Below, one piece after another: positions 7,510 to 41,178 of a stretch of 41,178 bases of DNA (position 1 is the first letter of the stretch; every line of letters starts with the position of its first letter). Source of the stretch: Acidimicrobiales bacterium (GTDB taxonomy: Bacteria; Actinomycetota; Acidimicrobiia; Acidimicrobiales; MedAcidi-G1); NCBI GenBank assembly GCA_014239855.1, contig JAAZXY010000018.1, forward strand, positions 1 through 41,178, in the 5' to 3' direction. The notes under the pieces are model-generated. The model was not told the origin of the DNA and did no database searches. It saw nothing but the letters and a program-made list of their open reading frames with translations. The translations under genes and the position numbers were made by a program.

Positions 7510-7516
7510 GCCCCTG

Positions 7517-8839
7517 ATGAGCGGAGATGTCCCGGGTCACGACGACCCGCTCGACCCGAACGACCCGATGGTCCGACGAGCGTCCACCGTCGGCCATCGG
7601 ATGGCCATGGGCCCCGGTGAGCCGGCGCTCACCGAGTGGGCGGCGTCCGGCCTGGACCTGCCCGACGAGACGGCCATGATGCGCTACCGACTGGACCGCA
7701 CGGTGGCCCAACTGGCCGACGCCGAGGTGGACGGGATCCTCCTGTTCGATCCCCTCAATGTCATGTACGTGACGTACGCACCCAACATGCAGGTCTGGTT
7801 GCTCCACAACCAGGCCCGCTACGCCTTCGTGGGCGCCGACGGCACCCTCATCCTGTTCGACTACCCGAACTGCGAGTTCCTGTCGGCCCACAACCCGTTC
7901 GTCACCGAGGTCCGACCGGCCCGGCCGTTCACCTACTTCCTGGCCGGTGACCGGATCGACGAGAAGTCCAAGGTCTTCGCCCAGGAGATCGCCGACCTGG
8001 CCCGGGTCCACGGGGCGGGCAGCCGCCGCATCGCCGTGGACTCGTCGACGACCGTCGGCGTCACGTCACTGCTGGACCAGGGCCTGACCCTGGTAGAGGG
8101 CACCTCCATCATGGAGGAGGCCCGCAAGATCAAGGGCCCCGACGAGATCCGGGCCATGCGATGCTCGGTGGACGCCACGTTCGTCTCGTGCCGGAAGATG
8201 TTCGAGGCCATGCGCCCCGGCATGTCCGAGAACCAGCTGTGGGGTGTCCTGTGGGCCGAGATGCTGGCCCGTCACGGCGAGTGGATGGAGTGCCGGCTGC
8301 TGGCCGCCGGGGAACGCACCAACCCGTGGTTCCAGGAGTGCAGCTCGTCGGTGATCAACAACGGTGACGTGGTGGCCTTCGACACCGACCTGGTTGGGGC
8401 CTACGGGATGATGACCGACATCTCCCGGACCTGGGTGTGCGGCGACGCCCCACCCACGCCGGAGGCCCGCCACGCCCACGACCTGGCCGTCGAGCAGATC
8501 ACCCGCAACACCGACCTGTTCAGACCCGGCGCCACCTTCCATGACCTGGTGCACAAGGCCTGGTATCCACCGGTCGCCGAGTACCGCCACTACTCGGTCC
8601 TGTCCCACGGGGTGGGCCAGTGCGACGAGTACCCGTCGCTCCCGTTCCGCGAGACGTGGGACGACGCCGGCTACGACGGGGTGCTGGAACCCGGCATGGT
8701 GCTCACCGTCGAGTCCTACGTGGGGGCCCGGTCCGGCGGCCAGGGCGTGAAGTTGGAGAACCAGCTCCTCATCACCGAGGACGGCCACGAGAACCTCAGT
8801 CCGTGGACGCTGGACCTGGAACGCTTCGAGCGGCTCTGA
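7517..8839 (+). CDS. dddP: M24-family enzyme, DddP-like DMSP lyase
   Basis: 440-residue protein with an N-terminal creatinase domain and a C-terminal pita-bread metallohydrolase domain. Candidate metal ligands are Asp289, Asp291, Asp301, His364, Glu399 and Glu414. Published DddP ligands, as I recall them, are Asp295, Asp297, Asp307, His371, Glu406 and Glu421, so spacing is the same to within one residue and the length fits. DddP cleaves dimethylsulfoniopropionate to dimethyl sulfide and acrylate. Other shared marks are N-M-Q-V-W, R-T-N-P-W-F-Q-E and H-G-V-G-Q-x-D-E-Y-P. ATG is 7 bases after the previous stop, with GAGG upstream. The alternative is a creatinase-like or unknown M24 hydrolase of the same operon. 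Confidence 0.7.
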   Translation: MSGDVPGHDDPLDPNDPMVRRASTVGHRMAMGPGEPALTEWAASGLDLPDETAMMRYRLDRTVAQLADAEVDGILLFDPLNVMYVTYAPNMQVWLLHNQARYAFVGADGTLILFDYPNCEFLSAHNPFVTEVRPARPFTYFLAGDRIDEKSKVFAQEIADLARVHGAGSRRIAVDSSTTVGVTSLLDQGLTLVEGTSIMEEARKIKGPDEIRAMRCSVDATFVSCRKMFEAMRPGMSENQLWGVLWAEMLARHGEWMECRLLAAGERTNPWFQECSSSVINNGDVVAFDTDLVGAYGMMTDISRTWVCGDAPPTPEARHAHDLAVEQITRNTDLFRPGATFHDLVHKAWYPPVAEYRHYSVLSHGVGQCDEYPSLPFRETWDDAGYDGVLEPGMVLTVESYVGARSGGQGVKLENQLLITEDGHENLSPWTLDLERFERL

Positions 8840-15242: not shown

Positions 15243-18041
15243 TCAGACTGCGGCCACCTCGACGTCGTCGTAGGTCTTGTTCCGACGGAACTCCAAGAGG
15301 ATCTTCTTGGACGTCACCGCCAGGATCGCTCCGGCGAACATGGTCAGGAACGCTCCGGCACCGGTGACCACGTTCAGATCCGAGACTCTGGCCAGGCTGG
15401 CGATCCAGACGATGCCGATGAGCGCCAGGCCTCCGCCCGCGGCCGCCACCGCGGCACTCCACCTCCATCTCCGGTTCTCGTCCAGTCCCACGAGCCCGGA
15501 GGACGGGATGGTCAGGAGCGCACCGATGGCCGCCACCACAATGGCCAGACGGGAAAGCCCGGCCCCCTGGTCGCTGTAGCCGTCGGTGATCGTCTTAGCG
15601 TTCCGACGGAACTTGTTGCGAAGCGACGTGACCTTGCTGGTGTTGGTGGCGGCCAGTGCCGGGTTCTCCTTGGCCTCGGCACGGAGTCGCTCCATCTCCT
15701 CGACGAGTTCAGGGGGAAGCTCGGTGCCGACCCGCTCGTCGTACGTCCAGGCCGAGAACCCACCGATGACCACCAGGATCACGGCGAGGATGCCGGTCCC
15801 CATGCGGCCCCAGGCCACCACGCGTTCCAGCGGCCGGAAGGCCGAGTAGGGGGCGGTCTGGAGGGCCAACAGGGCGCCGATGAGCATCACGACGCTGGCC
15901 ACGATGGCCACCATCACGCCACCGCCCTGGCTGTAACCCTCGACGTCGACATGGGGCGAGGCCACCATGTAGGTGACCGAGGCCAGCAGCATGCAGGTCG
16001 AGGTGATGACCATGATGTCGGCCCCGAACCACCGGGAACCCGAACGGACGGTGTTGGCCACCACGATCCCGATGAGGACCGTGGTGAGGATCTGGGTGTC
16101 CAGGAACAACGCCGAATCGCCGCTACCGATGGTCCCGATGACCAGCCAGCGAAGGGCGGCACCGGCCACCACGGCCCCGATCAGCGAGGTCCGCTGGTCC
16201 GCACGGTGGCCGACCAGCCGGTAGACCAAGGCGGCAGCGGCCAGGGCCACCACGTCCTTGACGTCGAGCAGGCTGGTCACCGGCGCCACGGTCAGGCCGA
16301 TCACGCCGATCACCGTCCCGGCCCCCAGGTCGTTCCAGGTCTCCCGGGTGGCATCCAGGAGGTTGGTGCGTCCCAGGACACTGATGGCCAGTGCCGAGAT
16401 CACCGCCACCAGGATGGCCACCACCACGGCGTCAAGTCCCAGCGGGGATTCGAAGTAGTGGCCGAGGATGCCCGCCGCAAACGCCCAGATACCGACGGTG
16501 CGCCATCGCAGGGGCACCGAGACCCGGGCCAGTCCGAGGACCAGACCCACGATGGCCGGAATGGTGAGTACCTCGATGGCCACCGCCCAGACGGCCTGCG
16601 CTTCGTGGCCCTCGAGGTTGGACAACGTCGCGAAGCCGTCGAACTGGCCGAGGATCGGGAAGGCGAAGACGGCGGCGAACAGACCGACCGCGGCAGCCAC
16701 CAGCCCGCCGGGCCCCCGTAGGCGCCCGATACCCCCGGTCCAGCCCAGACAAGATGCGCCGGCCATGACCGAGAAGAATCCCAGGATGAGCACGACAATG
16801 CCCGACCAGCTTCCGCCCGAGGCCTGGTAGCCGTTGAACGACTCGCCGGCCAGGTCGATGTCGATCGCCCGGGAATGACTCGAGAAGAGTCCCGCTCCGC
16901 TGCCCCAGGTCATCAGGGTGGAGAACACGGCCACCACGCCGGCCAGGAGGACCGCTGTCATACCGAGTCGCTCCCGGGCGCCGGCGACAACCTCATGCTC
17001 GATGTGGACGACCTTGGAGGCCTTCTGGTCGTCGGTCTCCGCCGCCTCGACCTTCTTGAGGAGCTCCTCGGGATCCTGGCGGTTGGCCATGGCCTCCCGG
17101 ATGCGGGTCAGCAGGTTGTCCCCGCCACCCTCCTCGGGCTGGGACAGGCGGTCGAGCACCACGGCCACCGTCCACAGGGCCAGACCGGACGAGATACCTA
17201 GACCCACGTCGAGGTTCTGGACGGCCCGGAAGACCAGGAGTCCGAGGCCCGAAGCGCCCATGATGGCGGCGATGCCCACCATGGCGATGGCCAGCATCAG
17301 GGTCTGGTTCAGACCGGCCATGATCGACGGCTTGGCCAGCGGCAGCTGCACGTCGGTGAGGACCCGCAGCTCGGTGGCCCCGTAGGCCCGGCTGGCCTCC
17401 ACGACGTCTTCGGGCACATGCCGGATGCCCAGGTTCACCATGCGTACCAGCGGTGGCAGGGCGTAGATCATGGTCACCATGGTCGCCGGCACCACGCCGA
17501 TGCTGAAGAAGAACACGAACGGCACCATGTAGACGAAGGTGTGGACGGTCTGCATGGCGTCCAGTACCGGTCTGGTCACGTTCCAGGCCGAGTCCACACG
17601 CGCGCAGAACACGCCGAGTGGAATCCCGATCAGGGCACACAATCCGACGGCCACGAGCACCATGCCGATGGTCCGCATGGTCTCGACCCAGTACATGGCG
17701 CCCAGCAGGCCGCACATCATCAGGCCGGCGCCGGCCATGATGCCGATCTTCGGGGTCCGGACCAGCGATCCGAGGATCACCGTGAAGATGACCACCTGGT
17801 ACCAGGGAAGGCTCAGCAGGAAGTCGTTGACGACGTTCTCCAACAGGAAGTCGAACGGCCACTTGACGGCGTTGAGGAACCACTCGGCGTTGACGTCCAT
17901 CCAGTCGACCATCTGGTCGAACCAGTGGCCGATCGGCAGCTGGAACTGGTCGAGGACCCTGGTCTCGGACAGGCCGACGCCTTCGGCGCGGCCCGTCCAG
18001 TCGCCGGTCTCGGCGGTGGCGATCCAACTCGCGGCGCTCAC
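15243..18041 (-). CDS. proW: Betaine ABC transporter permease with giant membrane extension
   Basis: 932 residues. The first third is a ProW/OpuAB-type permease: an N-terminal region with W-P-F-D-F-L-L-E near 60, several membrane helices, and the EAA loop A-S-R-A-Y-G-A-T-E-L near 217-226 that contacts the ATPase, ending near residue 300 (A-V-V-L-D-R-L). A charged linker follows (about 300-360). The remaining 570 residues hold roughly 14-16 hydrophobic segments, separated once by a polar stretch (about 760-810) rich in Glu, Arg and Lys. Normal ProW proteins are about 280-380 residues, so the C-terminal part is an additional membrane domain I do not recognise. GTG start overlaps the proV stop (GTGA). 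No frameshift is seen, and codon use is even throughout. Confidence 0.8.
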   Translation of the reverse strand: MSAASWIATAETGDWTGRAEGVGLSETRVLDQFQLPIGHWFDQMVDWMDVNAEWFLNAVKWPFDFLLENVVNDFLLSLPWYQVVIFTVILGSLVRTPKIGIMAGAGLMMCGLLGAMYWVETMRTIGMVLVAVGLCALIGIPLGVFCARVDSAWNVTRPVLDAMQTVHTFVYMVPFVFFFSIGVVPATMVTMIYALPPLVRMVNLGIRHVPEDVVEASRAYGATELRVLTDVQLPLAKPSIMAGLNQTLMLAIAMVGIAAIMGASGLGLLVFRAVQNLDVGLGISSGLALWTVAVVLDRLSQPEEGGGDNLLTRIREAMANRQDPEELLKKVEAAETDDQKASKVVHIEHEVVAGARERLGMTAVLLAGVVAVFSTLMTWGSGAGLFSSHSRAIDIDLAGESFNGYQASGGSWSGIVVLILGFFSVMAGASCLGWTGGIGRLRGPGGLVAAAVGLFAAVFAFPILGQFDGFATLSNLEGHEAQAVWAVAIEVLTIPAIVGLVLGLARVSVPLRWRTVGIWAFAAGILGHYFESPLGLDAVVVAILVAVISALAISVLGRTNLLDATRETWNDLGAGTVIGVIGLTVAPVTSLLDVKDVVALAAAALVYRLVGHRADQRTSLIGAVVAGAALRWLVIGTIGSGDSALFLDTQILTTVLIGIVVANTVRSGSRWFGADIMVITSTCMLLASVTYMVASPHVDVEGYSQGGGVMVAIVASVVMLIGALLALQTAPYSAFRPLERVVAWGRMGTGILAVILVVIGGFSAWTYDERVGTELPPELVEEMERLRAEAKENPALAATNTSKVTSLRNKFRRNAKTITDGYSDQGAGLSRLAIVVAAIGALLTIPSSGLVGLDENRRWRWSAAVAAAGGGLALIGIVWIASLARVSDLNVVTGAGAFLTMFAGAILAVTSKKILLEFRRNKTYDDVEVAAV

Positions 18042-19258
18042 AGGAACACCTCCCGCTCGAAGCCATCTACCAACTGTTCGACGCGTCCCATTTCTTCCAT
18101 GATCTCCCTGGGTTCCAACTCGCCCACCAGACAGCCCGTCTCGTCCAGGACGGCGATGGGGAGTCCCCGACCGGCCGCCGCATAGTTGTCGTTGAACCTC
18201 GCCTCGGCGGTCGTGGTGTCAAAATCCGATCGCAGGACCGACGCCAGGTCGGTCGTGCCGTGGGCCAGGGCGGTGGCCGCGTCGGTCATGGCCAGCAGGC
18301 CGGTGGGCCGGCCGTCGGCGTCGCAGCAGAAGCCGCCCCGACGGTCGCCCAGCGCGTCGACGCACTCGGTGAGGGTGCGGGACGGATCCAGGATGACCGG
18401 TGAGCTCATGACCTTGCCCACGTCGATGACCCGACCCTGGTCCACGTCCTGGACGAACTCGGCCACGTAGCCGTCCGCCGGCTGGGTGAGGATCTCCTCC
18501 GGGGTGCCGATCTGGATGACCTTGCCGTCACGCAGGATGCACACCCGGTTGCCGATGCGGAGGGCTTCGTTCAGGTCGTGGGTGATGAACAGGATCGTCT
18601 TGTGGAGCTTGGACTGGATGGTCATCAGCTCGTCCTGCATCTGCCGACGGATCAGCGGATCCAGGGCGCTGAACGCCTCGTCCATGAGCAGGATCTCCGG
18701 GTTGGAACACAGGGCCCGGGCCAGGCCGACACGCTGCTGCATACCTCCCGAGAGTTCCCGGGTGGAGTTGAAGGCGTAGGCCTCGAGGCCGACCATGGCC
18801 AGTGCCTCGATGGCCGCCTCGTGACGTTCCCGCTTCTCCACGCCCTGGACCTTGAGTCCGTAGGCCGTGTTGTCGATCACGTTGCGGTGGGGGAAAAGGG
18901 CGAAGTGCTGGAACACCATGGCCAGCTTCTCGCGGCGGAACGACTGCAGGGCGGCCCCGGTCAGTTCCTGTACGTCGGTGCCCTCCACCATGACCCGTCC
19001 GTGGGTGATGTCATGGAGCTTGTTGACCGTCCGGATGGCCGTGGACTTGCCGGAACCCGACAGACCCATGACCACGAAGATCTCGCCCTTGTTGACCGAA
19101 AAGGAGATGTCGTGCATGCCGACCACGTGGCCGGTCTGGCGCTGCACCTCGTCCTTTCCGACATCCGACGAGCAGAGGTCGAACGCCCGACCCCGCGGGT
19201 TGGGACCAAAGATCTTGTAGACGTTCTCCAGTGCGATGATCGGCTCTTCGTCCGACAT
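18038..19258 (-). CDS. proV: Quaternary-amine ABC transporter ATPase with CBS region
   Basis: 406-residue ATPase of the glycine betaine/proline betaine (ProV/OpuAA) family. Walker A G-L-S-G-S-G-K-S-T near 66, signature L-S-G-G-M-Q-Q-R near 165, Walker B I-L-L-M-D-E-A-F-S-A-L-D near 185, and H-loop T-H-D. Residues about 270-400 form the CBS-pair region that senses ionic strength in OpuA relatives (V-G-K-V-M-S-S-P-V-I, later L-P-I-A-V-L-D-E-T-G). ATG at 19258 has the purine-rich AAGAGGGGG directly upstream, which decides it over an earlier in-frame codon. The gene is first of a two-gene transcript with the permease and has its own promoter (19424-19460), separate from proX. Confidence 0.92.
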   Translation of the reverse strand: MSDEEPIIALENVYKIFGPNPRGRAFDLCSSDVGKDEVQRQTGHVVGMHDISFSVNKGEIFVVMGLSGSGKSTAIRTVNKLHDITHGRVMVEGTDVQELTGAALQSFRREKLAMVFQHFALFPHRNVIDNTAYGLKVQGVEKRERHEAAIEALAMVGLEAYAFNSTRELSGGMQQRVGLARALCSNPEILLMDEAFSALDPLIRRQMQDELMTIQSKLHKTILFITHDLNEALRIGNRVCILRDGKVIQIGTPEEILTQPADGYVAEFVQDVDQGRVIDVGKVMSSPVILDPSRTLTECVDALGDRRGGFCCDADGRPTGLLAMTDAATALAHGTTDLASVLRSDFDTTTAEARFNDNYAAAGRGLPIAVLDETGCLVGELEPREIMEEMGRVEQLVDGFEREVFL

Positions 19259-19423
19259 GCATCCCCCTCTTGGCCGCCGTGTCGGCGGCCCTGTTGGTTG
19301 GTTGTCCCCCCGCAGAGCCATCCGTCCCCCCGGGGACCGACTCCGCTTCCGGCCGGAAGTTAGCAGGGCACTCCGAACACCGCCGAAGGACCTGCCCTCA
19401 GTCGCCCGACCCGCCGACCAGAG
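19259..19423 (-). promoter_or_regulatory. Structured leader of proV
   Basis: About 160 bases lie between the predicted start of transcription and the proV ATG. They contain a perfect hairpin GGCCGCC-N5-GGCGGCC (19272-19290) touching the ribosome binding site, a perfect 14-base palindrome CTTCCGGCCGGAAG (19346-19359), and a short hairpin with GTCCCC/GGGGAC arms near 19324-19337. No coding gene is credible here. The structures might tune proV translation, but no known riboswitch class was recognised. Confidence 0.4.
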
Positions 19424-19460
19424 CGAACCCTATACAAACGTTCAGTCGACGGGAAGAGGC
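19424..19460 (-). promoter_or_regulatory. Promoter of proV, twin of the proX promoter
   Basis: On the minus strand TTCCCG, a 17-base spacer and TAGGGT form a plausible sigma-A promoter. The same element (TTCCCA, 17 bases, TAGGGT) stands before proX at 20916-20950, and the spacer is conserved too, including CTGAACG and TTGTA. Spacer conservation suggests a bound regulator, perhaps at the imperfect dyad CTATAC-N4-GTTCAG. Confidence 0.55.
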
Positions 19461-19484
19461 ATCTTCGAATTCCCGGTTGGTGGC

Positions 19485-19542
19485 AAAACGGCGGCCAAAA
19501 ACGGCGGCCAAAAACGGCAGAAGGCCGGGGCCCGTGGGCCCC
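19485..19542 (-). terminator. Intrinsic terminator of proX with repeated T-tracts
   Basis: Downstream of proX on the minus strand is a perfect stem GGGGCCC-AC-GGGCCCC (19527-19542), then three 13-base units each with GGCCGCCG and a run of four or five T (19485-19520). The rest of the 19259-19615 interval holds only the proV promoter and leader. Confidence 0.6.
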
Positions 19543-19615
19543 GACCTCCATTCACCGTGTCCCGGTAGCGGCCCCTCGAGGAGCGGCCGGATCCGGAATC
19601 AGATGTTCAGGCGGT

Positions 19616-20839
19616 TCAGCCTGCTGCCGCCTCGGCGATCCACGCGTCGACCGTGTCGGCGTTGTCGGCCATCCAGCCGGAAGCCAACTGCGCCACATGG
19701 GCCTGGGAGCCGTCACCGTCGGTCTGGTCGACCTGCAGGAACGAGATGTCCAGGATCGACGGCTTGATCAACGGGAACAGGTTCCGCAGGAACGGCGTCC
19801 CATCGAGCATGTCGGTACGAGCCGACACCTGGATGTCGGCAGCCGACCAACCCAACTGACACGGCTGGGTGCACATGTCGGCACCGAAGTCGGTGAAGCC
19901 TTCCTCCTGCTGGTGGTTCTCGCCACCCTCCTTACCCAACGGGTTGGAGTCATCGAGGACACCCTCGACGGACAACCACAGCACGTTGTCACCGGGCACC
20001 AGCACCGTCAGGTATGAAGCCGGCGACCACGTGTACAAGATCCCCGGCTCACCAGCGTTGACGCGGTTCACCATCTCGGCGAACAAGGCGTCGTACTCGG
20101 CCTTGGTCTCCACGAAGTTGTCCCACGGCTCGGTGCCGTTACCGAACGCGATCTGGTTCTCGATGATGTCGTCACAGGTCCACGATTCGGGGCAACCCAG
20201 AATCTCGGCCTTGCCGTCACCATCGGAATCCAGCTGCGACCACAACGACTCGTCACGGTTGATCTGATCAATCGTCGAGATGTTGTTGTCCTCAGCCCAC
20301 GTCTTGGTCACCAGGAAGCCCTGCACACCGGAGTCCTGGAACAGACCCGGCACGGCCTCCACGTGGTCACCAACGAGCGAACCGTCGGTCAGCTGGTTCT
20401 CGAACCACGAGAAGTGACCCGGGTACCACGAGTTGGCCCAGAAGTCACACGACCCCTCAGCCATTGCCGTGTAGGCATTCGACGGGCCCAACTCGATCAC
20501 CGACGGATCGGAGACCTCGAAACCGGCCTTCTGAAGAATCTGACGAACGATCTCCGCCTGGATGTAACCAGACGCCCAGTTCGCACGACACATCGTCAAC
20601 GACACACCATCACCGGGCAGAGCCGCCGGAGCGGCGGCCTCGTCGCTGTCGCCGCTGTCGCTGTCGCCGCTGTCGCTGCTTCCGGAATCAGCGTCTCCGC
20701 TGTCCGGAGCCTCGGTGGTCGCCGTCGCGGAATCGCCGCCGGAACCCCCGGCGTCGTCCGAGTCATCGGATCCACAGGCCGCTGCGATCAGCGAGAAGCC
20801 CAAGAGCAGCGACAGGAAAAGTCGCCATGATCGATTCAT
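19616..20839 (-). CDS. proX: Glycine betaine/proline ABC transporter substrate-binding lipoprotein
   Basis: 407-residue ProX/OpuAC-type binding protein. The N-terminus is a lipoprotein signal (M-N-R-S-W-R, hydrophobic [10 protein letters not shown], then A-A-A-C), so it should be anchored outside the membrane by its cysteine near residue 21. An acidic Ser/Gly/Asp linker with repeated S-G-D-S-D steps follows up to about residue 70. The binding domain contains aromatic positions typical for a betaine cage, for example [17 protein letters not shown] and [11 protein letters not shown] at 20839 is chosen because the signal begins there; GGAGGG lies about 11 bases upstream. Transcribed separately from proVW, ahead of it on the same strand. 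The ligand could be glycine betaine, carnitine, gamma-butyrobetaine or DMSP. Confidence 0.9.
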
Positions 20840-20915
20840 AGTGGGATCACCCTCCATTGGTGTCAGTGGTGCCACCAGCGCGCCCGCGTGACGAGCGTCA
20901 CCCCTCGGTGGCCGA

Positions 20916-20950
20916 CGCAACCCTATACAAGCGTTCAGTTCGTGGGAAGG
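20916..20950 (-). promoter_or_regulatory. Promoter of proX, twin of the proV promoter
   Basis: Minus-strand TTCCCA, 17-base spacer, TAGGGT. It is nearly identical to the proV element at 19424-19460, including spacer positions. Predicted transcription starts near 20913, giving a leader of about 75 bases with GGAGGG before the ATG. Confidence 0.55.
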
Positions 20951-21749: not shown

Positions 21750-22610
21750 TCAGGCATGGGCGTGCTGCCAACCGAACCGGCCCTTGATGCAAAGGTGTCC
21801 GTGGGTGACCGAGTGGTCGGCCGGCGAGGTGACCTTCACGATGCGCTCGTCCTGGGTGTGCAGTTCGAGGTTGCAGCCCACGCCGCAGAACGGACACACG
21901 GTGGTGGTCACCTGCTGCTCAGACTCGTCCCACGTCCCGGCCTCACGCATGTCGTGCTCGGTCTTGAAGGCCAGCGCCCCGGTCGGGCACACGCCGATGC
22001 AGTTGCCGCAGTACACGCACGCAGAATCGGGCAGCGTCACGTCGTGCTCGGTCGAGATGTGCGCATCGAACCCCCGACCGGCCGTGGCGATGGCGAAGGT
22101 GTGCTGGGCATCGTCGCCGCAGGCCTCCACGCACTTGTAACAGAGGATGCACCGCTCGTAGTCGCGCACGTACAGGTCGTCCTGGATCTTCACCGGCTGG
22201 GCCACCGTGGCGATCTCGGACCGGTCACCCATTCGCTCGGGGCGGGCGCCGTAGTGCTCCATCCAGGCGTGCACCTCGGGGTCAGCCCGGTCCATCTCCA
22301 CCGACGAGGCCAGCAGTTCATAGACCATGCGTCGACTCGTCCGGACCCGCTCGGTGTCGGTGGCCACCACCATGCCCTCTTCGACGGGCCTCGAACACGA
22401 GGGAACCAGCACCCGCGAACCCTCTACCTCGACCACGCAGACCCGGCACACGTTCACCGGGGTCAGGTTCTCGGCCCAGCACAGCGTGGGCGTATCGATG
22501 CCCTCGCGCTGACAGGCATCAAGGATCGTGGCGCCCTCGGGCACCCGGACCGCCTCACCGTCGAGGGTGAACTCGACCATGGTCGTCACCATCACCGGGA
22601 CCTCGTTCAC
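21750..22610 (-). CDS. Formate dehydrogenase iron-sulfur subunit: detached N-terminal half of FdsA
   Basis: 286 residues matching the N-terminus of FdsA/NuoG-type formate dehydrogenase alpha chains. [2Fe-2S] ligands Cys44, 55, 58 and 72; two [4Fe-4S] sets Cys154/157/160 with 208 and Cys198/201/204 with 164; then the molybdopterin Fe4S4 domain with Cys239, 242, 246 and 274 and the C-I-K-G lysine. The histidine-ligated cluster motif (H-P-L-D-C-P-x-C) of long FdsA is missing. The protein ends right after C-I-K-G-R-F-G-W-Q, where intact FdsA runs on into the cofactor domain; that domain is encoded at 24462-26429. GTG start overlaps the diaphorase stop (GTGA), so translation is likely coupled. It would carry electrons from the Mo site to the NAD module. 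Confidence 0.85.
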   Translation of the reverse strand: MNEVPVMVTTMVEFTLDGEAVRVPEGATILDACQREGIDTPTLCWAENLTPVNVCRVCVVEVEGSRVLVPSCSRPVEEGMVVATDTERVRTSRRMVYELLASSVEMDRADPEVHAWMEHYGARPERMGDRSEIATVAQPVKIQDDLYVRDYERCILCYKCVEACGDDAQHTFAIATAGRGFDAHISTEHDVTLPDSACVYCGNCIGVCPTGALAFKTEHDMREAGTWDESEQQVTTTVCPFCGVGCNLELHTQDERIVKVTSPADHSVTHGHLCIKGRFGWQHAHA

Positions 22611-24469
22611 GTGGCGCTCCCCTCATCGGTATTCGATCCACCGGTACCGGCACTGGCACCGGCCAGCAGGCCCAGATCTATGGCGCTGCGTACCGCTCCG
22701 GACGCCGTCTGCCCCAGACCACAGATCGAGGCGTCCTTCATCACGGCCGCCAGGTCGTCCAGCAGATCCCGCTCGTCGTCGATGCTCGCCCCACGGCCGA
22801 GGCGAACCAGCACCTCCTCCTGACGGACCGTCCCCACCCGGCACGGCACGCACTGGCCACAGGATTCGTCGCGGAAGAACTCGGCGATCCGACGAACCGT
22901 GTCGACCATGTCGTCCTGTTCGTCGAAGACCATGATGACGCCGGACCCCAGCGAGGCCCCGGCCGCCCGGGTGTCCTCGAGCGTCAACGGCATGTCGAGC
23001 GAGTCCGGGCCGACGAAGCTGCCCGCCGCTCCCCCCAGCATCACGGTCCGCAGGACGCGACCCTCGGGCACCCCGCCGGCCAGGTCGATGAGGTCGCGCA
23101 ACGTGGCGCCGAACTCGACCTCGTAGGTGCCGGGGCGGTTCACCCGCCCGCTGAGACAGAACAACTTGGTTCCCGGCGAGCGCTCGGTGCCCTCGGCTGC
23201 GTAGGCCTCGCCCCCCATGAGCACCACGGGCAGCACGTTGACCAGGGTCTCCACGTTGTTGATGGCCGTCGGCTCGCCGAACAGCCCGTGGGTGGTCGGG
23301 AACGGCGGCTTGTTGCGGGGCTCGCCCCGGTACCCCTCGATGGAGTTGAAGAGCGCCGTCTCCTCGCCACAGATGTAGGCGCCGGCACCGTTGCGGAGAT
23401 GCAGGTCGAACCGGGCTCCTGAGCCGGCCACGTCGGCACCCAGCAGGCCCGCGTCGTAGGCCTCGGCAATGGCGTGGGCCAGGCGTTCGGTGGCCACCGG
23501 GTACTCGCCCCGGATGTACAGCCAGCCCTGCTCGGCCCCGATGGCCACGCCGGCCACCGTCATGGCCTCGACCAGGGAGAACGGGTCGCCCTCCATGACC
23601 ACCCGGTCCTTGAAGGTCCCCGGTTCGGACTCATCGGCGTTGCACACCAGGTGGCGGGGACGACCCTCCTGGTCAGCCACGCCGCGCCACTTCACGCCGG
23701 TGGGGAACGCCGCGCCGCCCCGGCCCGACAGACCCGACGCGGCGACCTCGGCGATGACCTGTTGGCCACCCATGGCCAGCGACGCCTCCAGCGCCCGGTA
23801 GCCGCCGTGGGCCCGGTAGTCCTCGAGGCTGGTCGGGTCGACCACGCCGACCCGGGCCAGGAGTCGCAGCCCCGGATCCCCGGCCTGGGGGAGGCTGACC
23901 GACGGGGTGGAGGCGGACCCGGCAATGGCGACCGCCACCTCGGCGGGAGCCACCGGGCCGTATCCCGACCCGTTGTCCACCGCGGTCACCGTGAGATCAG
24001 ACGCCCCGGTGCGCTGCACCATGACCGCCGGGCCCCGTTCGCACTGGCCGAGGCACGGGCTGGCCTTGACGTGATGGCCCTCGGCCCGCAGGTCGTCGAT
24101 CAGGTCGACGGCGCCGAACAGGCGACAGGCCACGTCGTCGCAGACGTGCACGGTGTCGGTGGCGGCCGGCGGCTCGTGGGTGAACAGGTGGTAGAAGGTC
24201 GCCACTCCGTAGGCCTCGGCCGGCGGGACCTCCAGTTCGGCACAGGCGTGGTCCAGCCCACCGGGGCTGATCCACCCCGAGGCGCGCTGCAGGGCGTGCA
24301 ACGCCGGCAGAAGCAGGTGGCGACGCTCACGGGTGCGGGTCCGCCCGGCGTGCACCAGGCGCTCCGACTCACGGATGGTGACCGCCCCGAAGCCGACCAG
24401 GACCTCGGCCACCGCGGCCCGCTCGGCCTCCGTCGCCTCCTCGGTCGCTCCGAAATACAGGTCAGGCAT
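22607..24469 (-). CDS. Formate dehydrogenase diaphorase subunit, NuoE-NuoF fusion
   Basis: 620-residue fusion. Residues about 1-160 are NuoE/FdsG-like thioredoxin-fold, with [2Fe-2S] ligands Cys110, Cys115, Cys139 and Cys143. From about 210 on is NuoF/FdsB: the FMN/NADH region G-L-S-G-R-G-G-A-A-F-P-T-G-V-K-W, the C-N-A-D-E-S-E-P-G-T-F-K-D-R motif, R-G-E-Y, G-A-G-A-Y-I-C-G-E-E-T-A-L, and the [4Fe-4S] set E-S-C-G-Q-C-V-P-C-R with a later cysteine in I-C-G-L. It takes electrons from formate through the iron-sulfur chain and reduces NAD. ATG at 24469 overlaps the end of the catalytic gene by 8 bases; an earlier in-frame start at 24538 would only add the antisense of the 15-base tandem repeat. Soluble: no signal peptide or membrane segment. 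Confidence 0.88.
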   Translation of the reverse strand: MPDLYFGATEEATEAERAAVAEVLVGFGAVTIRESERLVHAGRTRTRERRHLLLPALHALQRASGWISPGGLDHACAELEVPPAEAYGVATFYHLFTHEPPAATDTVHVCDDVACRLFGAVDLIDDLRAEGHHVKASPCLGQCERGPAVMVQRTGASDLTVTAVDNGSGYGPVAPAEVAVAIAGSASTPSVSLPQAGDPGLRLLARVGVVDPTSLEDYRAHGGYRALEASLAMGGQQVIAEVAASGLSGRGGAAFPTGVKWRGVADQEGRPRHLVCNADESEPGTFKDRVVMEGDPFSLVEAMTVAGVAIGAEQGWLYIRGEYPVATERLAHAIAEAYDAGLLGADVAGSGARFDLHLRNGAGAYICGEETALFNSIEGYRGEPRNKPPFPTTHGLFGEPTAINNVETLVNVLPVVLMGGEAYAAEGTERSPGTKLFCLSGRVNRPGTYEVEFGATLRDLIDLAGGVPEGRVLRTVMLGGAAGSFVGPDSLDMPLTLEDTRAAGASLGSGVIMVFDEQDDMVDTVRRIAEFFRDESCGQCVPCRVGTVRQEEVLVRLGRGASIDDERDLLDDLAAVMKDASICGLGQTASGAVRSAIDLGLLAGASAGTGGSNTDEGSAT

Positions 24470-26429
24470 GGGTCCCCACCGGGTCGTTGGTCGACGCCGG
24501 GTCGCCAGCCCGATCTTCAGCAGCCCGATCTTCAGCAACCGGCGAGGCCAGCTTGTCGATCCGGATGGCCGCCGCCTTGAACTCGGCGGTACCGGACTTC
24601 GGGTCCACGGCGTCGCTGGTGATCTGGTTGATGTCGGTGGTCTCCGGGAAATGGAAGGTGGTGTGGCAGAGGCCCACCGCCAGGTGCTCCTCGACCTCGA
24701 TGGTCATGGCGATGGCGCCACGCCGCGACGACACGGTGACCCGCTCGCCGTCGACCAGACCGAGAGCCTCGGCGTCGGTGGTCGAGATGGACAGCGCCTC
24801 ACCGGTCCGGATGGGCGACGGGAAGTGCTCGGTCTGGACACCGGTGTTGTACGAGTCGAGTGCCCGCACCGTGGTGAGGCGCAACGGGAACTCGTCGGTC
24901 AACACGTCCAGGGGCGGCCGATCGTCGACGCACGAGAAGGGGGCCAGTCGACCCTGGGCCGGACGCTCCCAGAGACGACCGTGCAGGAAGGAGGTGCCCG
25001 GGTGGTCCTCGGTGGGACACGGCCACTGGATGCCGCCCTCGGCCTCCAGCCTGTCCCACGACATTCCGCCATGCATGGGCGACACGGTGCGGAGTTCGTC
25101 CCAGAGTTCCTGCGGGGTGGGCTGACCCCAGTCGTCATCGCCCATGAGGGCCGCCAGGTCGTTGATGATGCCCACCTCCTGACGGGCCTCGCCGGGTGGC
25201 GGCACGGCGGCCCGCATCCGCTGGACCCGTCGCTCGCTGTTGGTGGCCGTCCCGTCGGACTCGGCCCATCCCAGAGCGGCCGGGAACACCACGTCGGCCA
25301 TCTCGGCGGTCCGGGTCATGAAGACGTCCTGGACGACCAGCAGGTCGAGGCGCTCCAACATGGCTCGGGCGTGCACGGCATCGGCCTCGGAATCCACCGG
25401 ATTCTCGCCGATGCAGTAGACGGCCTTGAGTTCGTCGCGGCCCATGGCCTCGAACATCTGGGTGAGGTTCCAGCCGTTGGTCGGCGGGATGGTGCACTCC
25501 CACGCCGCCTCGAACTTGGCCCGGGCCTCGTCGTCCTCCACGTCCTGGAACCCGGAGAGCTTGTTGGGCAGCGCACCCATGTCGCCTCCGCCCTGCACGT
25601 TGTTCTGGCCCCGCAACGGGACGAGCCCCGAGCCCCATCGGCCGACGTGGCCGGTGAGGAGCGACAGGTTGCAGAGGGACTGCACGTTGTCCACGCCGGT
25701 GTGGTGCTCGGTGATCCCCAGTGTCCAGCAGATCTGGGCCTTGTCCGCCGTGGCGTAGGCGTGGGCCAGGTCTCGGATGGCTTCGGCGGGCACGCCGGTG
25801 ACCGACGAAGTGTGCTCCAGGGTCCACGGCTCGACGAAGGCCACGAACTCCTCGTAGCCGGTGGTGGCGTTGGCGATGAACTCGTCGTCGGTCAGGCCCG
25901 CGGCGATGATCTCGCGGGCCACGCCGTGGGCCAGTCCGATGTCGGTCCCGACGTTGAGGCCCAACCAGTGGTCGGCGAATTTGGCGGTGCCGGTACGACG
26001 CGGGTCGACGGTCCACAGGCGCGCACCGTTGGCCACGCCCCGCAGGGCGTGATGGAAGAAGATCGGATGCGCGTTACGCGCGTTGGATCCCCACATGACG
26101 ATGACGTCCGCCTCCTCGATCTCCACGTAGGAGGAGGTGCCACCGCCGGCTCCGAAGACTGTCGCCAGACCGACGACGCTGGGAGCGTGTCAAGTTCGAT
26201 TGCAGCTGTCGATGTTGTTCGAGCCGATGACCCGACGGGCGAAACGCTGGGCGGCGTAGTTCACCTCGTTGGTCGTCTTCGAACAACTGAACATCCCGAA
26301 GGCGGTCGGGCCGTGGGCATCGACCGCGGTGCGGAACCCGGTGGCGGCCCGTCCGAGGGCCTCCTCCCAGGTGGCCTCGCGGAGGACGCCATCGTCCCGG
26401 ACCATCGGGGTCGTCAGACGCTTGCTCAT
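24462..26429 (-). CDS. fdhA: Formate dehydrogenase catalytic subunit with selenocysteine (TGA at 26190-26192)
   Basis: 655 residues if the in-frame TGA is read as selenocysteine (residue 80). Context N-N-I-D-S-C-N-R-T-[TGA]-H-A-P-S-V-V-G-L aligns exactly with the Sec/Cys-His active site of formate dehydrogenases (N-N-V-D-C-C-A-R-V-U-H-G-P-S-V-A-G-L in E. coli FdhF), and the frame is intact on both sides. The protein is the molybdopterin domain (E-I-E-E-A-D-V-I-V-M-W-G-S-N-A-R near 98-113) plus the C-terminal dinucleotide-binding barrel. The N-terminal Fe4S4 domain is absent and supplied by 21750-22610. ATG at 26429 has GGGGAA upstream. The C-terminal tail carries A-E-D-R-A twice from a 15-base tandem repeat. 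First gene of a three-gene operon. Cytoplasmic; no Tat signal. A Cys-to-stop mutation is the alternative but does not explain the SECIS. Confidence 0.88.
26149..26186 (-). promoter_or_regulatory. SECIS-like hairpin for selenocysteine insertion
   Basis: Counting U of the UGA as base 1, bases 7-11 (GCUCC) pair with 40-44 (GGAGC). Above an internal loop, bases 16-21 (GUCGUC) pair with 27-32 (GGCGAC), including one G-U pair. The apical loop is GGUCU, with G and U at 23-24 as in the E. coli fdhF element bound by SelB. Size and distance from UGA match bacterial SECIS elements. Confidence 0.75.
26190..26192 (-). other. Selenocysteine codon TGA (recoding site)
   Basis: In-frame TGA at residue 80 of the formate dehydrogenase catalytic subunit, followed by CAC for the conserved histidine. 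Reading it as stop would give a 79-residue fragment starting from 26429 and a headless second frame. Confidence 0.85.
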
Positions 26430-30766: not shown

Positions 30767-32281
30767 TCAGGCGGGGATCCGCATGACCCGACCCACCTGG
30801 GGCGGAACGGGCAGGTCGGCGTGGGCCTCGGCGATGGCGGCCAGGGCGGCGGCCGGGCCGGGCAGCAGGGGCGCTGTCGAACCGGCTTCGGTGTCGACGT
30901 GCAGCAGCATCTGTTCGGTGGTGCACAACAGGTCGCCGGTCGATCCGCCCTCGTCCACCAGATACATCGAGTGGAAGAAGTGCAGCCTCTTGGCGTCCAC
31001 CCCGAGAACCTGGGTGGTGAAACGCAGCGGCTCGCCGAGCGACGCCTCCTTCACGTAGTTGAGGTGGGTCTCCACGGTGAAGAAGGTGTGGCCGGCCGCC
31101 CGATAGTCCTCGTCGATCCCGATGTACCGGAACAACTTGTCGCTGGCCCAGCCGAACGCCGTGAGGAACGCCCATTCGGACATGTGGCCGTTGTAGTCCA
31201 CCCAGTCGGGCTCCACGACCGTCTCGTACAGGGCCAGCGGGGCCGACAGGTCATCGACACCGGCATCGCCCGGGCTCCACCGCGCCGGTGATCCGGCCTC
31301 GTGGATCCGGGCCTCCCGCTCGGCGATCAACCGGCCCGCACCCAGATCGAGGGGCCGCAACGAGCGCATCACCGAGATGACGTAGTCGTCCCGGAGGCGC
31401 TCCAGTTCGGCAATGGACCGTCCCTCGGCCTGCTCCTCGCAGCCGTCGGCCATGGCCTCGATGAGGTCCTCGGTCAGTTCCGGCGCCTCGAGCTTCGTCC
31501 ACGGCAACTTCAGGGCCGGACCGAACTGGCGCAGCATGTGGCGCATGCCCTGTTCACCGCCGGCCAGGTGGAAGGTCAGGTTGGTGCCCATGCCGGCCCA
31601 CCGCAGCCCCGGCCCGTAGTTGACGGCGTCGTCCAGTTCTCGGGTGGTGGCCACCCCGTCGTTCACCAGGTGGAGGGCCTCGCGCCACAGGGCCTCCTGG
31701 AGCCGGTCCGAGAGGTAGCCCTCGATCTCGTTTCGCACCACCAGCGGATGCATCACCAGGTCGTCGTAGTGGGCCACCGCAGCATCCATGGCCGACGTCG
31801 ACGTCTGTTCGCCGGCCACGATCTCCACGAGGGGCAGCAGGTACACCGGGTTGAACGGATGCCCGATCAGGATCCGTTCCGGATGCTCGCAGCCTTCCTG
31901 GAGGTTGGTGGGCAGCAGACCCGAGGAACTCGAGGCGATGACCACCTCCGGTCCGGCGTGGGCGGCCAACGTCTGCAGCAGCGGACGCTTGACCGTCTCG
32001 TTCTCCGGGGCGCTCTCCTGGATCCAGTCGACCCGACCGGCCAGATCCTCGGCGGTGTCGGCCCACGTCAGGCGGTCCGGGTCGGCCCCCGGAAACAGTC
32101 CCAGCCTGGTGGCCGACGGCCAGGCCCGGGCCACCGCGGCACGAAGCTTGTCCTCGGCGCCCGGCGCCGGATCCCAGGCCACCACGTCGAGCCCCCGGGC
32201 CAGAGCCCGGACAGCCCAACCGGCACCGATCACCCCGGTGCCCACCACGCCGATCGTGCGCCCCTCGGCGGCCGTGCCCAT
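30767..32281 (-). CDS. L-carnitine dehydrogenase fused to betainyl-CoA thioesterase
   Basis: 504 residues. Residues 1-320 are a 3-hydroxyacyl-CoA dehydrogenase-type domain: NAD motif G-V-V-G-T-G-V-I-G-A-G-W near 10-21 and H-P-F-N-P-V-Y-L-L-P-L-V-E-I near 141-154. Residues about 345-500 are a 4HBT hotdog thioesterase with D-Y-N-G-H-M near 365. The two domains correspond to Pseudomonas CdhA (L-carnitine to 3-dehydrocarnitine) and CdhB (betainyl-CoA to glycine betaine). Fused forms of about 500 residues are known, for example the rhizobial carnitine dehydrogenase. The dehydrocarnitine-cleavage gene is 33 bases upstream, which completes the sequence of reactions. ATG at 32281; no strong ribosome site. 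Confidence 0.88.
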   Translation of the reverse strand: MGTAAEGRTIGVVGTGVIGAGWAVRALARGLDVVAWDPAPGAEDKLRAAVARAWPSATRLGLFPGADPDRLTWADTAEDLAGRVDWIQESAPENETVKRPLLQTLAAHAGPEVVIASSSSGLLPTNLQEGCEHPERILIGHPFNPVYLLPLVEIVAGEQTSTSAMDAAVAHYDDLVMHPLVVRNEIEGYLSDRLQEALWREALHLVNDGVATTRELDDAVNYGPGLRWAGMGTNLTFHLAGGEQGMRHMLRQFGPALKLPWTKLEAPELTEDLIEAMADGCEEQAEGRSIAELERLRDDYVISVMRSLRPLDLGAGRLIAEREARIHEAGSPARWSPGDAGVDDLSAPLALYETVVEPDWVDYNGHMSEWAFLTAFGWASDKLFRYIGIDEDYRAAGHTFFTVETHLNYVKEASLGEPLRFTTQVLGVDAKRLHFFHSMYLVDEGGSTGDLLCTTEQMLLHVDTEAGSTAPLLPGPAAALAAIAEAHADLPVPPQVGRVMRIPA

Positions 32282-32314
32282 CGGATCAGCCCTGACCGAG
32301 GTTCCCGGCCGAGC

Positions 32315-33196
32315 TCATCGGAGGTTCAACGTCTGACGGGCGTCGGCCGAGGTCTGCACCCGGGCACCCATGAGTTCCACGATCCGGATGGCCTTCTCGA
32401 CCAACTGGGCGTTGGTGGCCAGTACCCCGCGCTCCAGGTAGAGGTTGTCCTCCAGGCCGACCCGCACGTGTCCGCCCAGCATCACCGACTGGGCCACCAT
32501 CGGCATCTGCATGGCACCCAGGCCGAACGACGTGAACTCGGCCTCGGCGGGCAGGCGATTCACCATGGCCTGGAGGATCCCGACGTCCAACGGCGTGCCG
32601 TACGGGATCGACAGGCAGAGTTGGAGCCAGTACGGAGCGTCGATCAGGCCCTCGGCGATCATCGTCTCGGCGAACCACAGGTTGCCGGTGTCGAAGACCT
32701 CCAGTTCGGGACGCACGCCCAGCTCGCGCACCCGCTCGGCCATGATGCGCAACATGGCCGGGGTGGACACGTAGACCTCGTTGTGGTCGCCGAAGTTCAA
32801 CGACCCGCAGTCCATCGAGCAGATGTCGGGACGGATGGCCTCCACGTGGGCCAGGCGCTCCAGCCCACCGACCAGGTCGGTGCCGGGCTGCCAGGACATC
32901 GGGTCGTCGTCCGGTCCGACGTTCAGGTCGCCACCCATGCCCGCCGTGAGGTTCACCACCACGTCGGTGTTCTTCTCCCGGATGCGGTCGACCACCTCGC
33001 GGTAGAGGTCGACCGTGCGGGTGCCCTTCCCGGTCTCGAGGTCACGCACGTGACAGTGGACGATGGCCGCCCCGGCCGATGCGGCGTCCAGTGCGGAGTT
33101 GGCGATCTGTTCCGGGGTGACCGGTACGTGCTCGCTACGCCCCGAGGTGTCTCCCGAGCCGGTCACGGCGCAGGAGATGATGACGTCACGGTTCAT
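32315..33196 (-). CDS. 3-dehydrocarnitine cleavage enzyme, BKACE (DUF849) family
   Basis: 293-residue beta-keto-acid cleavage enzyme. Zinc-binding H-C-H-V-R near 46-50, S-M-D-C-G-S-L-N-F-G near 120, and G-L-E-D-N near 250, all typical of the family. BKACEs condense a beta-keto acid with acetyl-CoA to give acetoacetate and a new CoA ester. CdhC, the carnitine-pathway member, gives betainyl-CoA. Operon position before the carnitine dehydrogenase-thioesterase fusion supports this assignment. ATG at 33196 is chosen because homology begins at M-N-R-D-V-I-I-S-C-A-V-T-G; the frame stays open to 33328 without family similarity. First gene of the carnitine operon, divergent from serA. Confidence 0.87.
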   Translation of the reverse strand: MNRDVIISCAVTGSGDTSGRSEHVPVTPEQIANSALDAASAGAAIVHCHVRDLETGKGTRTVDLYREVVDRIREKNTDVVVNLTAGMGGDLNVGPDDDPMSWQPGTDLVGGLERLAHVEAIRPDICSMDCGSLNFGDHNEVYVSTPAMLRIMAERVRELGVRPELEVFDTGNLWFAETMIAEGLIDAPYWLQLCLSIPYGTPLDVGILQAMVNRLPAEAEFTSFGLGAMQMPMVAQSVMLGGHVRVGLEDNLYLERGVLATNAQLVEKAIRIVELMGARVQTSADARQTLNLR

Positions 33197-33281
33197 GGTT
33201 CGGGTCACGATGGCCCCATTTCTCAGTCGGCATTTCTCCGTCGGCTTCTCGAACGGCCCGCCCCCGTGGAACGGCCCCCCA

Positions 33282-33310
33282 TTGTCCCGGGAACGGGCCT
33301 TGCGTAGGCT
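33282..33310 (+). promoter_or_regulatory. Promoter of the serA operon
   Basis: TTGTCC (33282-33287), a 17-base spacer and TAGGCT (33305-33310) make the best sigma-A-like promoter in the window. Transcription would start near 33317, leaving a leader of about 115 bases with no recognised riboswitch. The 237-base divergent region must also hold the carnitine operon promoter, which I could not place. Confidence 0.45.
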
Positions 33311-33433
33311 GCCCCCGGCCCGGATCATCCTCCCCGATCGGGAATCGGTGACCCGGTCCGTCCCAGAATCCGCGCAGGCTACCCCGCCGTCCGTACCTCA
33401 GGTTCCGACGTCGGCGTGCCGAAGGAGCAAATC

Positions 33434-39499: not shown

Positions 39500-41178
39500 T
39501 CAGCCCTTCAACCGCGAGTCATCCGGGTCGAACACGGCCCCCGTGGAGGCCACCTTCACCGGGAACAGCTCGTTCATGTACATGACCTGCAGGTCGGTGC
39601 CGGCCACGGCCAGATCCCGCGGGAGGTAGGACATCAGCAGGTGCTTTCCGACCGACGGCCCGTAGCCCGCCGAGGTGACCCGACTGACCCGACCGTGGCT
39701 GTCGACGATGCGACCGCCGTCGGCGTCCAGGATGGGCTCGTTGCCACCCATCATGTGACGGGCCCGGCCCTGGCCGTCCGTCTGGTCCTCGACGGTGAGG
39801 GTGCACATCGAGACCTCGGGATCGCCGGCCTCGCGGGCCGCCAGGTAGGCGTCACGGCCGATGAAGTCGGCGGCCTTGAGCTTCGGGCGGGCCAGGCCGG
39901 CCTCCAGCGGGTTGTACTCGCTCTCCAGCTCGGCGCCCATCAGGCGGTAGCCCTTCTCGAGGCGACCCGACGATCCGTACACGCCGCCGCCGGTCGCCCG
40001 GATGCCCAGGTCGGCACCGGCCTCCATCAGGGCGTCCCACAGGGCGGGGCCGTTGTCCCACGCCGTGTAGATCTCCCAGCCGGTGTCACCGACGTAGGAG
40101 ATGCGGAACAACTGGACGGGCAGGCCGGCCACCTCGGCGTCGATGATCGAGCCGTAGGGCGAGCCGTCCTGGCTGAGGTCCTGACCGGTCAGCTGGGACA
40201 GCACGGCCGGGGCGTTCGGGCCCCACAGGCCGAGCGTGGTCAGCTCTCGGGTGATGTTGGTGAACGTCACCGAGCCGTCGGTCGGCATGTGACGCCGGGT
40301 CCAGAACTCGTCGCGTCCACCGTCGAACACGCCGGTCACGATCCGCATGCGGTCCTCGCCGAGGCGCATCATCGTGAGGTCGGAGTGGAAGCCACCGTCA
40401 GGCGTCAGCCACGGGGTGTAGATCGAACGGCCGACGGCCACGTCGACCTTGTTGACGGCCAGGCGCTCCGCGTACTCGATGGCCCCGGGGCCGTCCAGCT
40501 CGTAGATCTGGAAGGCGCTCAGGTCGACCACACCGCAGTGCTCGCGCATGTTGAGGTGCTCGCCGGTGGTGATGGGGCTCCACCAGCGGTTGTCCCATTC
40601 GACCTCGCGCTCGGCCAGGCCGTAGCGCTCCACGAGGTCGGCGTTGGCGCCGTACCACTGGGGGCGCTCCCACGTCCGGGCCTGGAAGAAGGTGGCGTCG
40701 AGGTCCTCCTGGCGGGAGAAGTACGGGCCCACCTCGAGGTTGCGGCGTCCCTCCCACTGCTCGGCCGGGTGGACGATCCCGTAGGTCTTGATGAAGTGCT
40801 CGTCGGCCCGGGACCAGATGTGCTCGTCGGAGCGCTCCTGGTCGTAGAAGCGGGCGATGTCGGCGCCGTGGACGTCGATGACCCGGGGGTAGCCGTGGGT
40901 CATCCACTCGGCGACCACCTGGGCCATGCCCGGCCCCTCCTTGACCCACACCGCGGCGGCCGACCAGAGGTTTCGCACCTCGGTGGTCTCGCCGAGGCAC
41001 GGCATGGTGTCGGGGGTCAGCGAGAGCAGGCCGTTGATGGCGTACTTGATCTCGGCGTCGCCCAGCATGTCCATCAACTCGATGGCCGTCTCCATCTGGT
41101 CGTCGAAGTCGTCCGGCGTGAACGGCATCTCCGTCGGGGACAGTGCGGCCTCGGCGTTGGACGGGATCTCGTCCGGGT
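39500..41178 (-). CDS. Dimethylglycine/sarcosine dehydrogenase-GcvT fusion, N-terminus beyond the window
   Basis: About 559 codons of a paralogue of the 4963-7509 gene. The frame is still open at the window edge; the methionine at 41128 is internal because upstream codons continue the family pattern. Visible: the end of the FAD domain (Y-A-I-N-G-L-L-S-L-T-P-D and E-G-P-G-M-A-Q-V-V-A-E-W-M), a linker region (W-E-R-P-Q-W), then the GcvT domain with V-V-D-L-S-A-F-Q, G-D-T-G-W-E-I-Y and the C-terminal barrel. The FAD-attaching N-terminus is not in view. Coupling to etfBA argues for electron transfer to ETF. It may act on a different step (for example sarcosine versus dimethylglycine) from the first copy. 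Confidence 0.87.
   Translation of the reverse strand, partial: PDEIPSNAEAALSPTEMPFTPDDFDDQMETAIELMDMLGDAEIKYAINGLLSLTPDTMPCLGETTEVRNLWSAAAVWVKEGPGMAQVVAEWMTHGYPRVIDVHGADIARFYDQERSDEHIWSRADEHFIKTYGIVHPAEQWEGRRNLEVGPYFSRQEDLDATFFQARTWERPQWYGANADLVERYGLAEREVEWDNRWWSPITTGEHLNMREHCGVVDLSAFQIYELDGPGAIEYAERLAVNKVDVAVGRSIYTPWLTPDGGFHSDLTMMRLGEDRMRIVTGVFDGGRDEFWTRRHMPTDGSVTFTNITRELTTLGLWGPNAPAVLSQLTGQDLSQDGSPYGSIIDAEVAGLPVQLFRISYVGDTGWEIYTAWDNGPALWDALMEAGADLGIRATGGGVYGSSGRLEKGYRLMGAELESEYNPLEAGLARPKLKAADFIGRDAYLAAREAGDPEVSMCTLTVEDQTDGQGRARHMMGGNEPILDADGGRIVDSHGRVSRVTSAGYGPSVGKHLLMSYLPRDLAVAGTDLQVMYMNELFPVKVASTGAVFDPDDSRLKG

Follow-up and report, generated by a model that had tools for sequence, protein, structure and literature searches.

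The fdhABC locus

The window analysed here, a stretch of 41,178 nucleotides forming positions 1 to 41,178 of contig JAAZXY010000018.1 (Acidimicrobiales bacterium, a probably marine actinobacterium; assembly GCA_014239855.1), carries on its minus strand fdhA (24462..26429), a gene for the catalytic molybdopterin part of a formate dehydrogenase alpha subunit, 655 residues long with a predicted selenocysteine (Sec, U) at residue 80. The frame opens at ATG 26429, from which an in-frame TGA (26192-26190) is codon 80, and when this TGA is read as U a single frame continues to the next stop, the terminator at 24464-24462, which is likewise TGA. The first-pass annotation had described two collinear frames parted by nothing but a TGA, in a gene that conventional gene calling would split or drop; with TGA taken as a stop the gene is indeed listed as two ORFs of 99 and 554 aa, and with TGA as U it is one. 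Our assignment of fdhA rests on that translation, on the Pfam domains Molybdopterin and Molydop_binding, on the NCBIfam formate dehydrogenase alpha family TIGR01591 and on formate dehydrogenases in the PDB.

The codon after the inner TGA is CAC, so that the conserved histidine expected there is present (context NNIDSCNRT-U-HAPSVVGLATVFGAGG, with HAPSVVGL as the residues following U80). When FdhA is aligned with solved structures, the counterpart of residue 80 is C in 7bkb_D and in 7qv7_S, and X in both 9t1s_L and 1aa6 (E. coli formate dehydrogenase H); in 1aa6 the X is at chain position 140 by count, which we take to be Sec140. The proposed placement of the TGA on the active-site Sec/Cys position thus holds, and FdhA combines molybdopterin domains with a putative Sec-His pair at the metal site. 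E. coli FdhF (1aa6/1fdo) also has Sec then His at the aligned position and shares the molybdopterin fold, over an alignment spanning 20-660; it differs in being one chain with its own 4Fe-4S part, whereas here that part lies in FdhC and the partners are NuoE/NuoF-like. TGA 26192-26190 most likely encodes selenocysteine.

fdhA is the first gene of an operon of three. Its stop is overlapped (ATGCCTGA) by the ATG at 24469 of fdhB (22607..24469, minus strand), a NuoE-NuoF fusion with the Pfam domains 2Fe-2S_thioredx, Complex1_51K, SLBB and NADH_4Fe-4S that is the probable NAD/FMN subunit; this start is our choice, the listed ORF beginning at 24538. The stop of fdhB is overlapped in turn (GTGA) by the GTG of fdhC (21750..22610, minus strand), which encodes 2Fe-2S, 4Fe-4S and Molybdop_Fe4S4 domains (Pfam Fer2_4, Fer4 and Molybdop_Fe4S4) and is the detached N-terminal Fe-S part of alpha. 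The 672 positions of TIGR01591 are shared between the two proteins without overlap, FdhC matching positions 1-49 (54 bits) and FdhA positions 50-672 (629 bits), so that alpha is split over two genes, a feature absent from the first-pass annotation.

The score of FdhA against TIGR01591 is below the family cut-off of 666.25, and its matches extend to nitrate reductases and other molybdopterin enzymes, so that a Sec-containing relative of formate dehydrogenase with another substrate or another electron acceptor has to be weighed. We consider this improbable. A score under the cut-off is expected if the N-terminal part lies in FdhC, which is where the missing positions are found; of the ten best PDB sequences, eight bear the name formate dehydrogenase or hydrogen-dependent CO2 reductase and two that of YjgC; and the NuoE and NuoF domains encoded within the operon point to NAD, as in NAD-dependent formate dehydrogenase complexes. 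The same modules (molybdopterin part, NuoG-like Fe-S N-terminal part, NuoE and NuoF) make up FdsABG (6tg9), which we take to be a Rhodobacter capsulatus-type NAD-dependent formate dehydrogenase with Cys in the active site where Sec is predicted here; alpha of 6tg9 is a single chain of 958 residues, whereas in our operon alpha is split and NuoE and NuoF are fused. The product of the operon is, on its domains, most likely an NAD-linked formate dehydrogenase.

Genes for selenocysteine decoding

The genome, a draft of 2.35 Mb in 144 contigs that is 83% complete, contains the full set of genes for selenocysteine decoding. Adjacent on one contig, about 13.6 kb from a gene for tRNA-Sec, are selA (388.7 bits, cut-off 267.9) and selB (265.6 bits, cut-off 242.25), the latter with a SelB-wing_3 domain as its C-terminal end; the tRNA scores 67.5 bits and is called tRNA-SeC(tca) by ARAGORN. 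selD (356.2 bits, cut-off 125) is present as well, so that selA, selB, selD and a tRNA-Sec with UCA anticodon, the genes by which the first-pass annotation would have its proposal checked, are all in the same genome as an in-frame UGA at a place where homologues have Sec or Cys. A second match above the tRNA-Sec cut-off (48.6 bits) is called tRNA-Ser(tga).

By profile match and frame reading, selD (contig C111 of this genome, locus L051, 5253-4195, minus strand) itself has an in-frame TGA, at 5208, in the context SHGAG-U-GCK. Of the best 30 class SelD loci, 16 carry TGA at that site and 14 carry TGC or TGT.

Across the class, selA scores above cut-off in 52 of the 53 genomes with a TGA-containing fdhA vs 82 of the 145 others (Fisher p 9e-10, kinship ignored). 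The one exception, G188, has the TGA fdhA without a selA match in an assembly that is 79% complete. Selenium genes are also kept in a group of small class genomes (f21/g41, 0.6-1.1 Mb), none of which is among the 111 class genomes with an FdhA match: tRNA-Sec was found in 8/8 tested, one TGA anywhere inside the SelD match in 40/40 listed, and selA in many.

A putative SECIS element downstream of the TGA

Just after the TGA, the minus strand can form a hairpin (26149..26186) beginning at base 7 (26186) as counted from the start of the TGA. It was found as first drawn, with a lower stem of 5 bp (GCUCC/GGAGC), an upper stem of 6 bp including one G-U pair (GUCGUC/GGCGAC) and the loop GGUCU, with GU at 23-24; the SECIS of E. 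coli fdhF is of the same type, with a GGUCU loop. An RNA folding check had also been proposed for this hairpin, and here the outcome is negative: its single-sequence folding energy is no better than chance (z = -0.76, equalled by 43 of 200 shuffles). Rfam likewise returned no match at gathering score in the whole window, and none at E <= 10 in 26000-26300. With an unremarkable energy, the hairpin has to be judged comparatively, and the evidence against chance, which comes from aligned relatives, is of that kind: retention of the TGA, retention of the loop codons and covariation in the upper stem.

The loop reads GGTCTG in 96/96 TGA loci checked (66 from a scan of named genomes and 30 from a search of the class, both described below, with two genes common to both sets). 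For a test of codon use, 96 of 97 loci could be entered, one being too short, and setting aside the sole Cys-encoding locus left 95 TGA loci. Codon entropy among these is 0 at both loop codons (GGT 95/95, CTG 95/95), compared with a mean of 1.82 and a minimum of 0.82 bits at 91 other conserved degenerate columns, a degree of conservation beyond coding need.

Pairing was assessed over 28 distinct sequences against 500 shuffles, with the proviso that kinship among the sequences makes their cells dependent on one another. All cells of the upper stem are paired (100%), and both-side changes occur at two of its pairs (in 5 sequences and in 1 sequence); in the lower stem 95.7% of cells are paired, one of its pairs failing in 6 of the 28 sequences. 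Neither the percentage paired nor the covariation score (0.161) was reached by any of the 500 shuffles, and the number of cells with both-side changes was reached by one; the number of pairs with both-side changes (reached by 107/500) and the number of pair types (reached by 291/500) are not above shuffles. Sliding the pairing by -3 to +2 columns lowers the covariation score to 0.012-0.057. At +3 there are more both-side changes (10 cells vs 6), at a score of 0.109 vs 0.161 and with 70.8% vs 98.1% of cells paired. A covariance model built from 29 rows, the fdhA hairpin itself among them, recovers the fdhA site in its own genome at E 7.1e-16, the next match having E 0.52; of 5143 first-look candidates, 150 were scored in this search. 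The model misses the selD site in that genome. Conservation among relatives together with the covarying upper stem uphold the earlier suggestion that the hairpin is a SECIS element.

In an alternative reading, TGA is decoded as Trp or Cys, through a changed code or leaky termination, and selenium plays no part. That reading is very improbable: fdhA itself ends in TGA, so TGA also serves as a stop in this genome; the sel set is complete; the loop codons are retained only together with the TGA; and the one relative with a sense codon at this position has Cys.

Distribution of the TGA among relatives

We searched 198 genomes of the class, of which 111 gave matches at E <= 1e-40. A close relative of FdhA (at least 59% identity) with a TGA in the match occurs in 53 of the 198, our own genome included; in 30 loci read at the DNA level the TGA is at the same place in all 30, and for the other 23 genomes its presence is taken from the count of stops in the match. 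The remaining matches, at 30-43% identity and mostly without a TGA, belong to more distant enzymes or other types of formate dehydrogenase. Some class genomes show two TGAs in the match, which raised the possibility of a second selenocysteine. This is improbable for the plus-strand loci read, where the second TGA is terminator-like, with the match ending there or no more than about 20 residues away; in minus-strand loci the reading covered the active-site codon.

Scanning named genomes with short peptide patterns, an approach that favours close relatives, yielded 69 loci, of which 68 have TGA and one, in Planotetraspora silvatica (L096, match 6001-7935), has TGC (Cys). No sense codon other than Cys was thus seen at this position in the 69. 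The P. silvatica gene has GGACTG at the place of GGTCTG, which looks like decay of the SECIS following a change from Sec to Cys. The nearest named relatives of FdhA are in Acidimicrobiales and Acidimicrobiaceae metagenome assemblies (92-91% identity), the names of several pointing to marine samples. In two other named relatives, L117 and L099, the open frame ahead of the TGA is unusually long (430 and 290 codons) and might represent an N-terminal fusion.

Of 67 named loci, 57 have both fdhB and fdhC on the strand of fdhA and downstream of it; 6 show only fdhB, and 4 (L088, L100, L111 and L118) show neither gene. In some of these cases the contig ends there; in L100 and L118, 3.6 and 6 kb of sequence follow with no match.

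A dead or truncated gene, with its Cys codon broken by nonsense mutation or misread in sequencing, might be suggested by the draft state of the assembly (144 contigs, 83% complete) and by a gene that, taken by itself, a caller would list as two ORFs, and it has almost no probability left, as the same TGA in 30/30 class and 68/69 named loci from independent assemblies already refutes it and the downstream frame and operon are intact. The recurrence of TGA in relatives, or of Cys in one, speaks equally against the sequencing error that had been raised as a possible undoing of the Sec assignment, and the TGA is best read as a selenocysteine codon.

Comparison with published selenocysteine formate dehydrogenases

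Sec-containing formate dehydrogenases are the best-known class of bacterial selenoproteins, and the mechanism proposed here is the standard one. The first-pass annotation held selenoproteins to be unusual in this kind of bacterium, a view that does not stand given the 53 of 198 class genomes with a TGA-containing relative and the Sec-formate dehydrogenases published in actinobacteria (PMC7176365, PMC5029168). In Actinomycetospora chiangmaiensis three such enzymes are described, and formate removal depends on selenite (PMC7176365). One of them in strain DSM 45062, FDH3 (FdhA3/FdhB3/FdhC3; WP_084681743.1, WP_018332443.1 and WP_018332444.1), is described as cytoplasmic and NAD-dependent, with subunits of 640 (Sec alpha), 614 and 316 aa (PMC7176365), against 655, about 620 and 286 here, a comparison of sizes only; by its size, FdhC3 may be a detached N-terminal part of alpha. 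The Sec trait is also described in Microlunatus and Nakamurella, among other actinobacteria (PMC5029168), and co-occurrence of SelA and SelB in most bins of sponge symbionts from various phyla (PMC5649159). Our search of open-licence papers found none tying Sec directly to this class.

A proposed route of formate oxidation

The functions of SelA, SelB and SelD in this family are established, as is that of selenium at the metal. We are highly confident of the explanation as a whole, namely that SECIS- and SelB-directed insertion of Sec at the TGA gives an FdhABC enzyme that oxidises formate to CO2 with formation of NADH. SelA, using selenophosphate from SelD, would make Sec-tRNA-Sec; SelB would carry it, bind the mRNA hairpin (26186-26149) after the UGA and deliver Sec at the ribosome. 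Once the three proteins had assembled, selenium at residue 80 would coordinate the Mo or W of the bis-pterin centre where formate is oxidised, and the electrons would reach the flavin/NAD site of FdhB by way of the Fe-S clusters in FdhC, the products being CO2 and NADH.

The surrounding genes suggest where the formate could come from. Within the window are genes for a glycine-betaine-type ABC transporter (15243-20920), a FAD oxidoreductase with a folate-binding GCV_T domain (4963-7509) and, at the window end, a second GCV_T protein (39500-41128). On the minus strand, a match to L-carnitine dehydrogenase (426.8 bits, cut-off 414) joined to a thioesterase domain (30767-32281) is neighboured by a beta-keto acid cleavage enzyme (32315-33328), and the pair (30767-33328) looks like a cluster for carnitine breakdown; further genes of the window encode a CoA-ligase-like protein, an acyl-CoA dehydrogenase and an enoyl-CoA hydratase. 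Formate for FdhABC would probably derive from one-carbon units released, through these neighbouring genes, by demethylation of carnitine and glycine betaine. Adjoining the demethylase-like FAD/GCV_T gene on the plus strand (7517-8839) is an M24-family protein that resembles the DMSP lyase DddP, though at 439.8 bits it stays under the curated cut-off of 600.

Implications

The wider biology of Sec-formate dehydrogenases in actinobacteria is already published. For this class, it is tempting to speculate, and we do so tentatively, that Sec use is a widespread and long-kept trait, retained even in genomes of ~1 Mb and often tied to a split-alpha Sec-formate dehydrogenase that burns the one-carbon units of methylated osmolytes (carnitine and glycine betaine, for example), with the result that the supply of marine selenium could limit that carbon flow. 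FdhA and SelD of the class offer natural comparisons of Sec with Cys. Since a gene caller that ends frames at TGA would break fdhA in two or lose it, many Acidimicrobiia genomes could encode formate oxidation and a demand for selenium that annotation overlooks.
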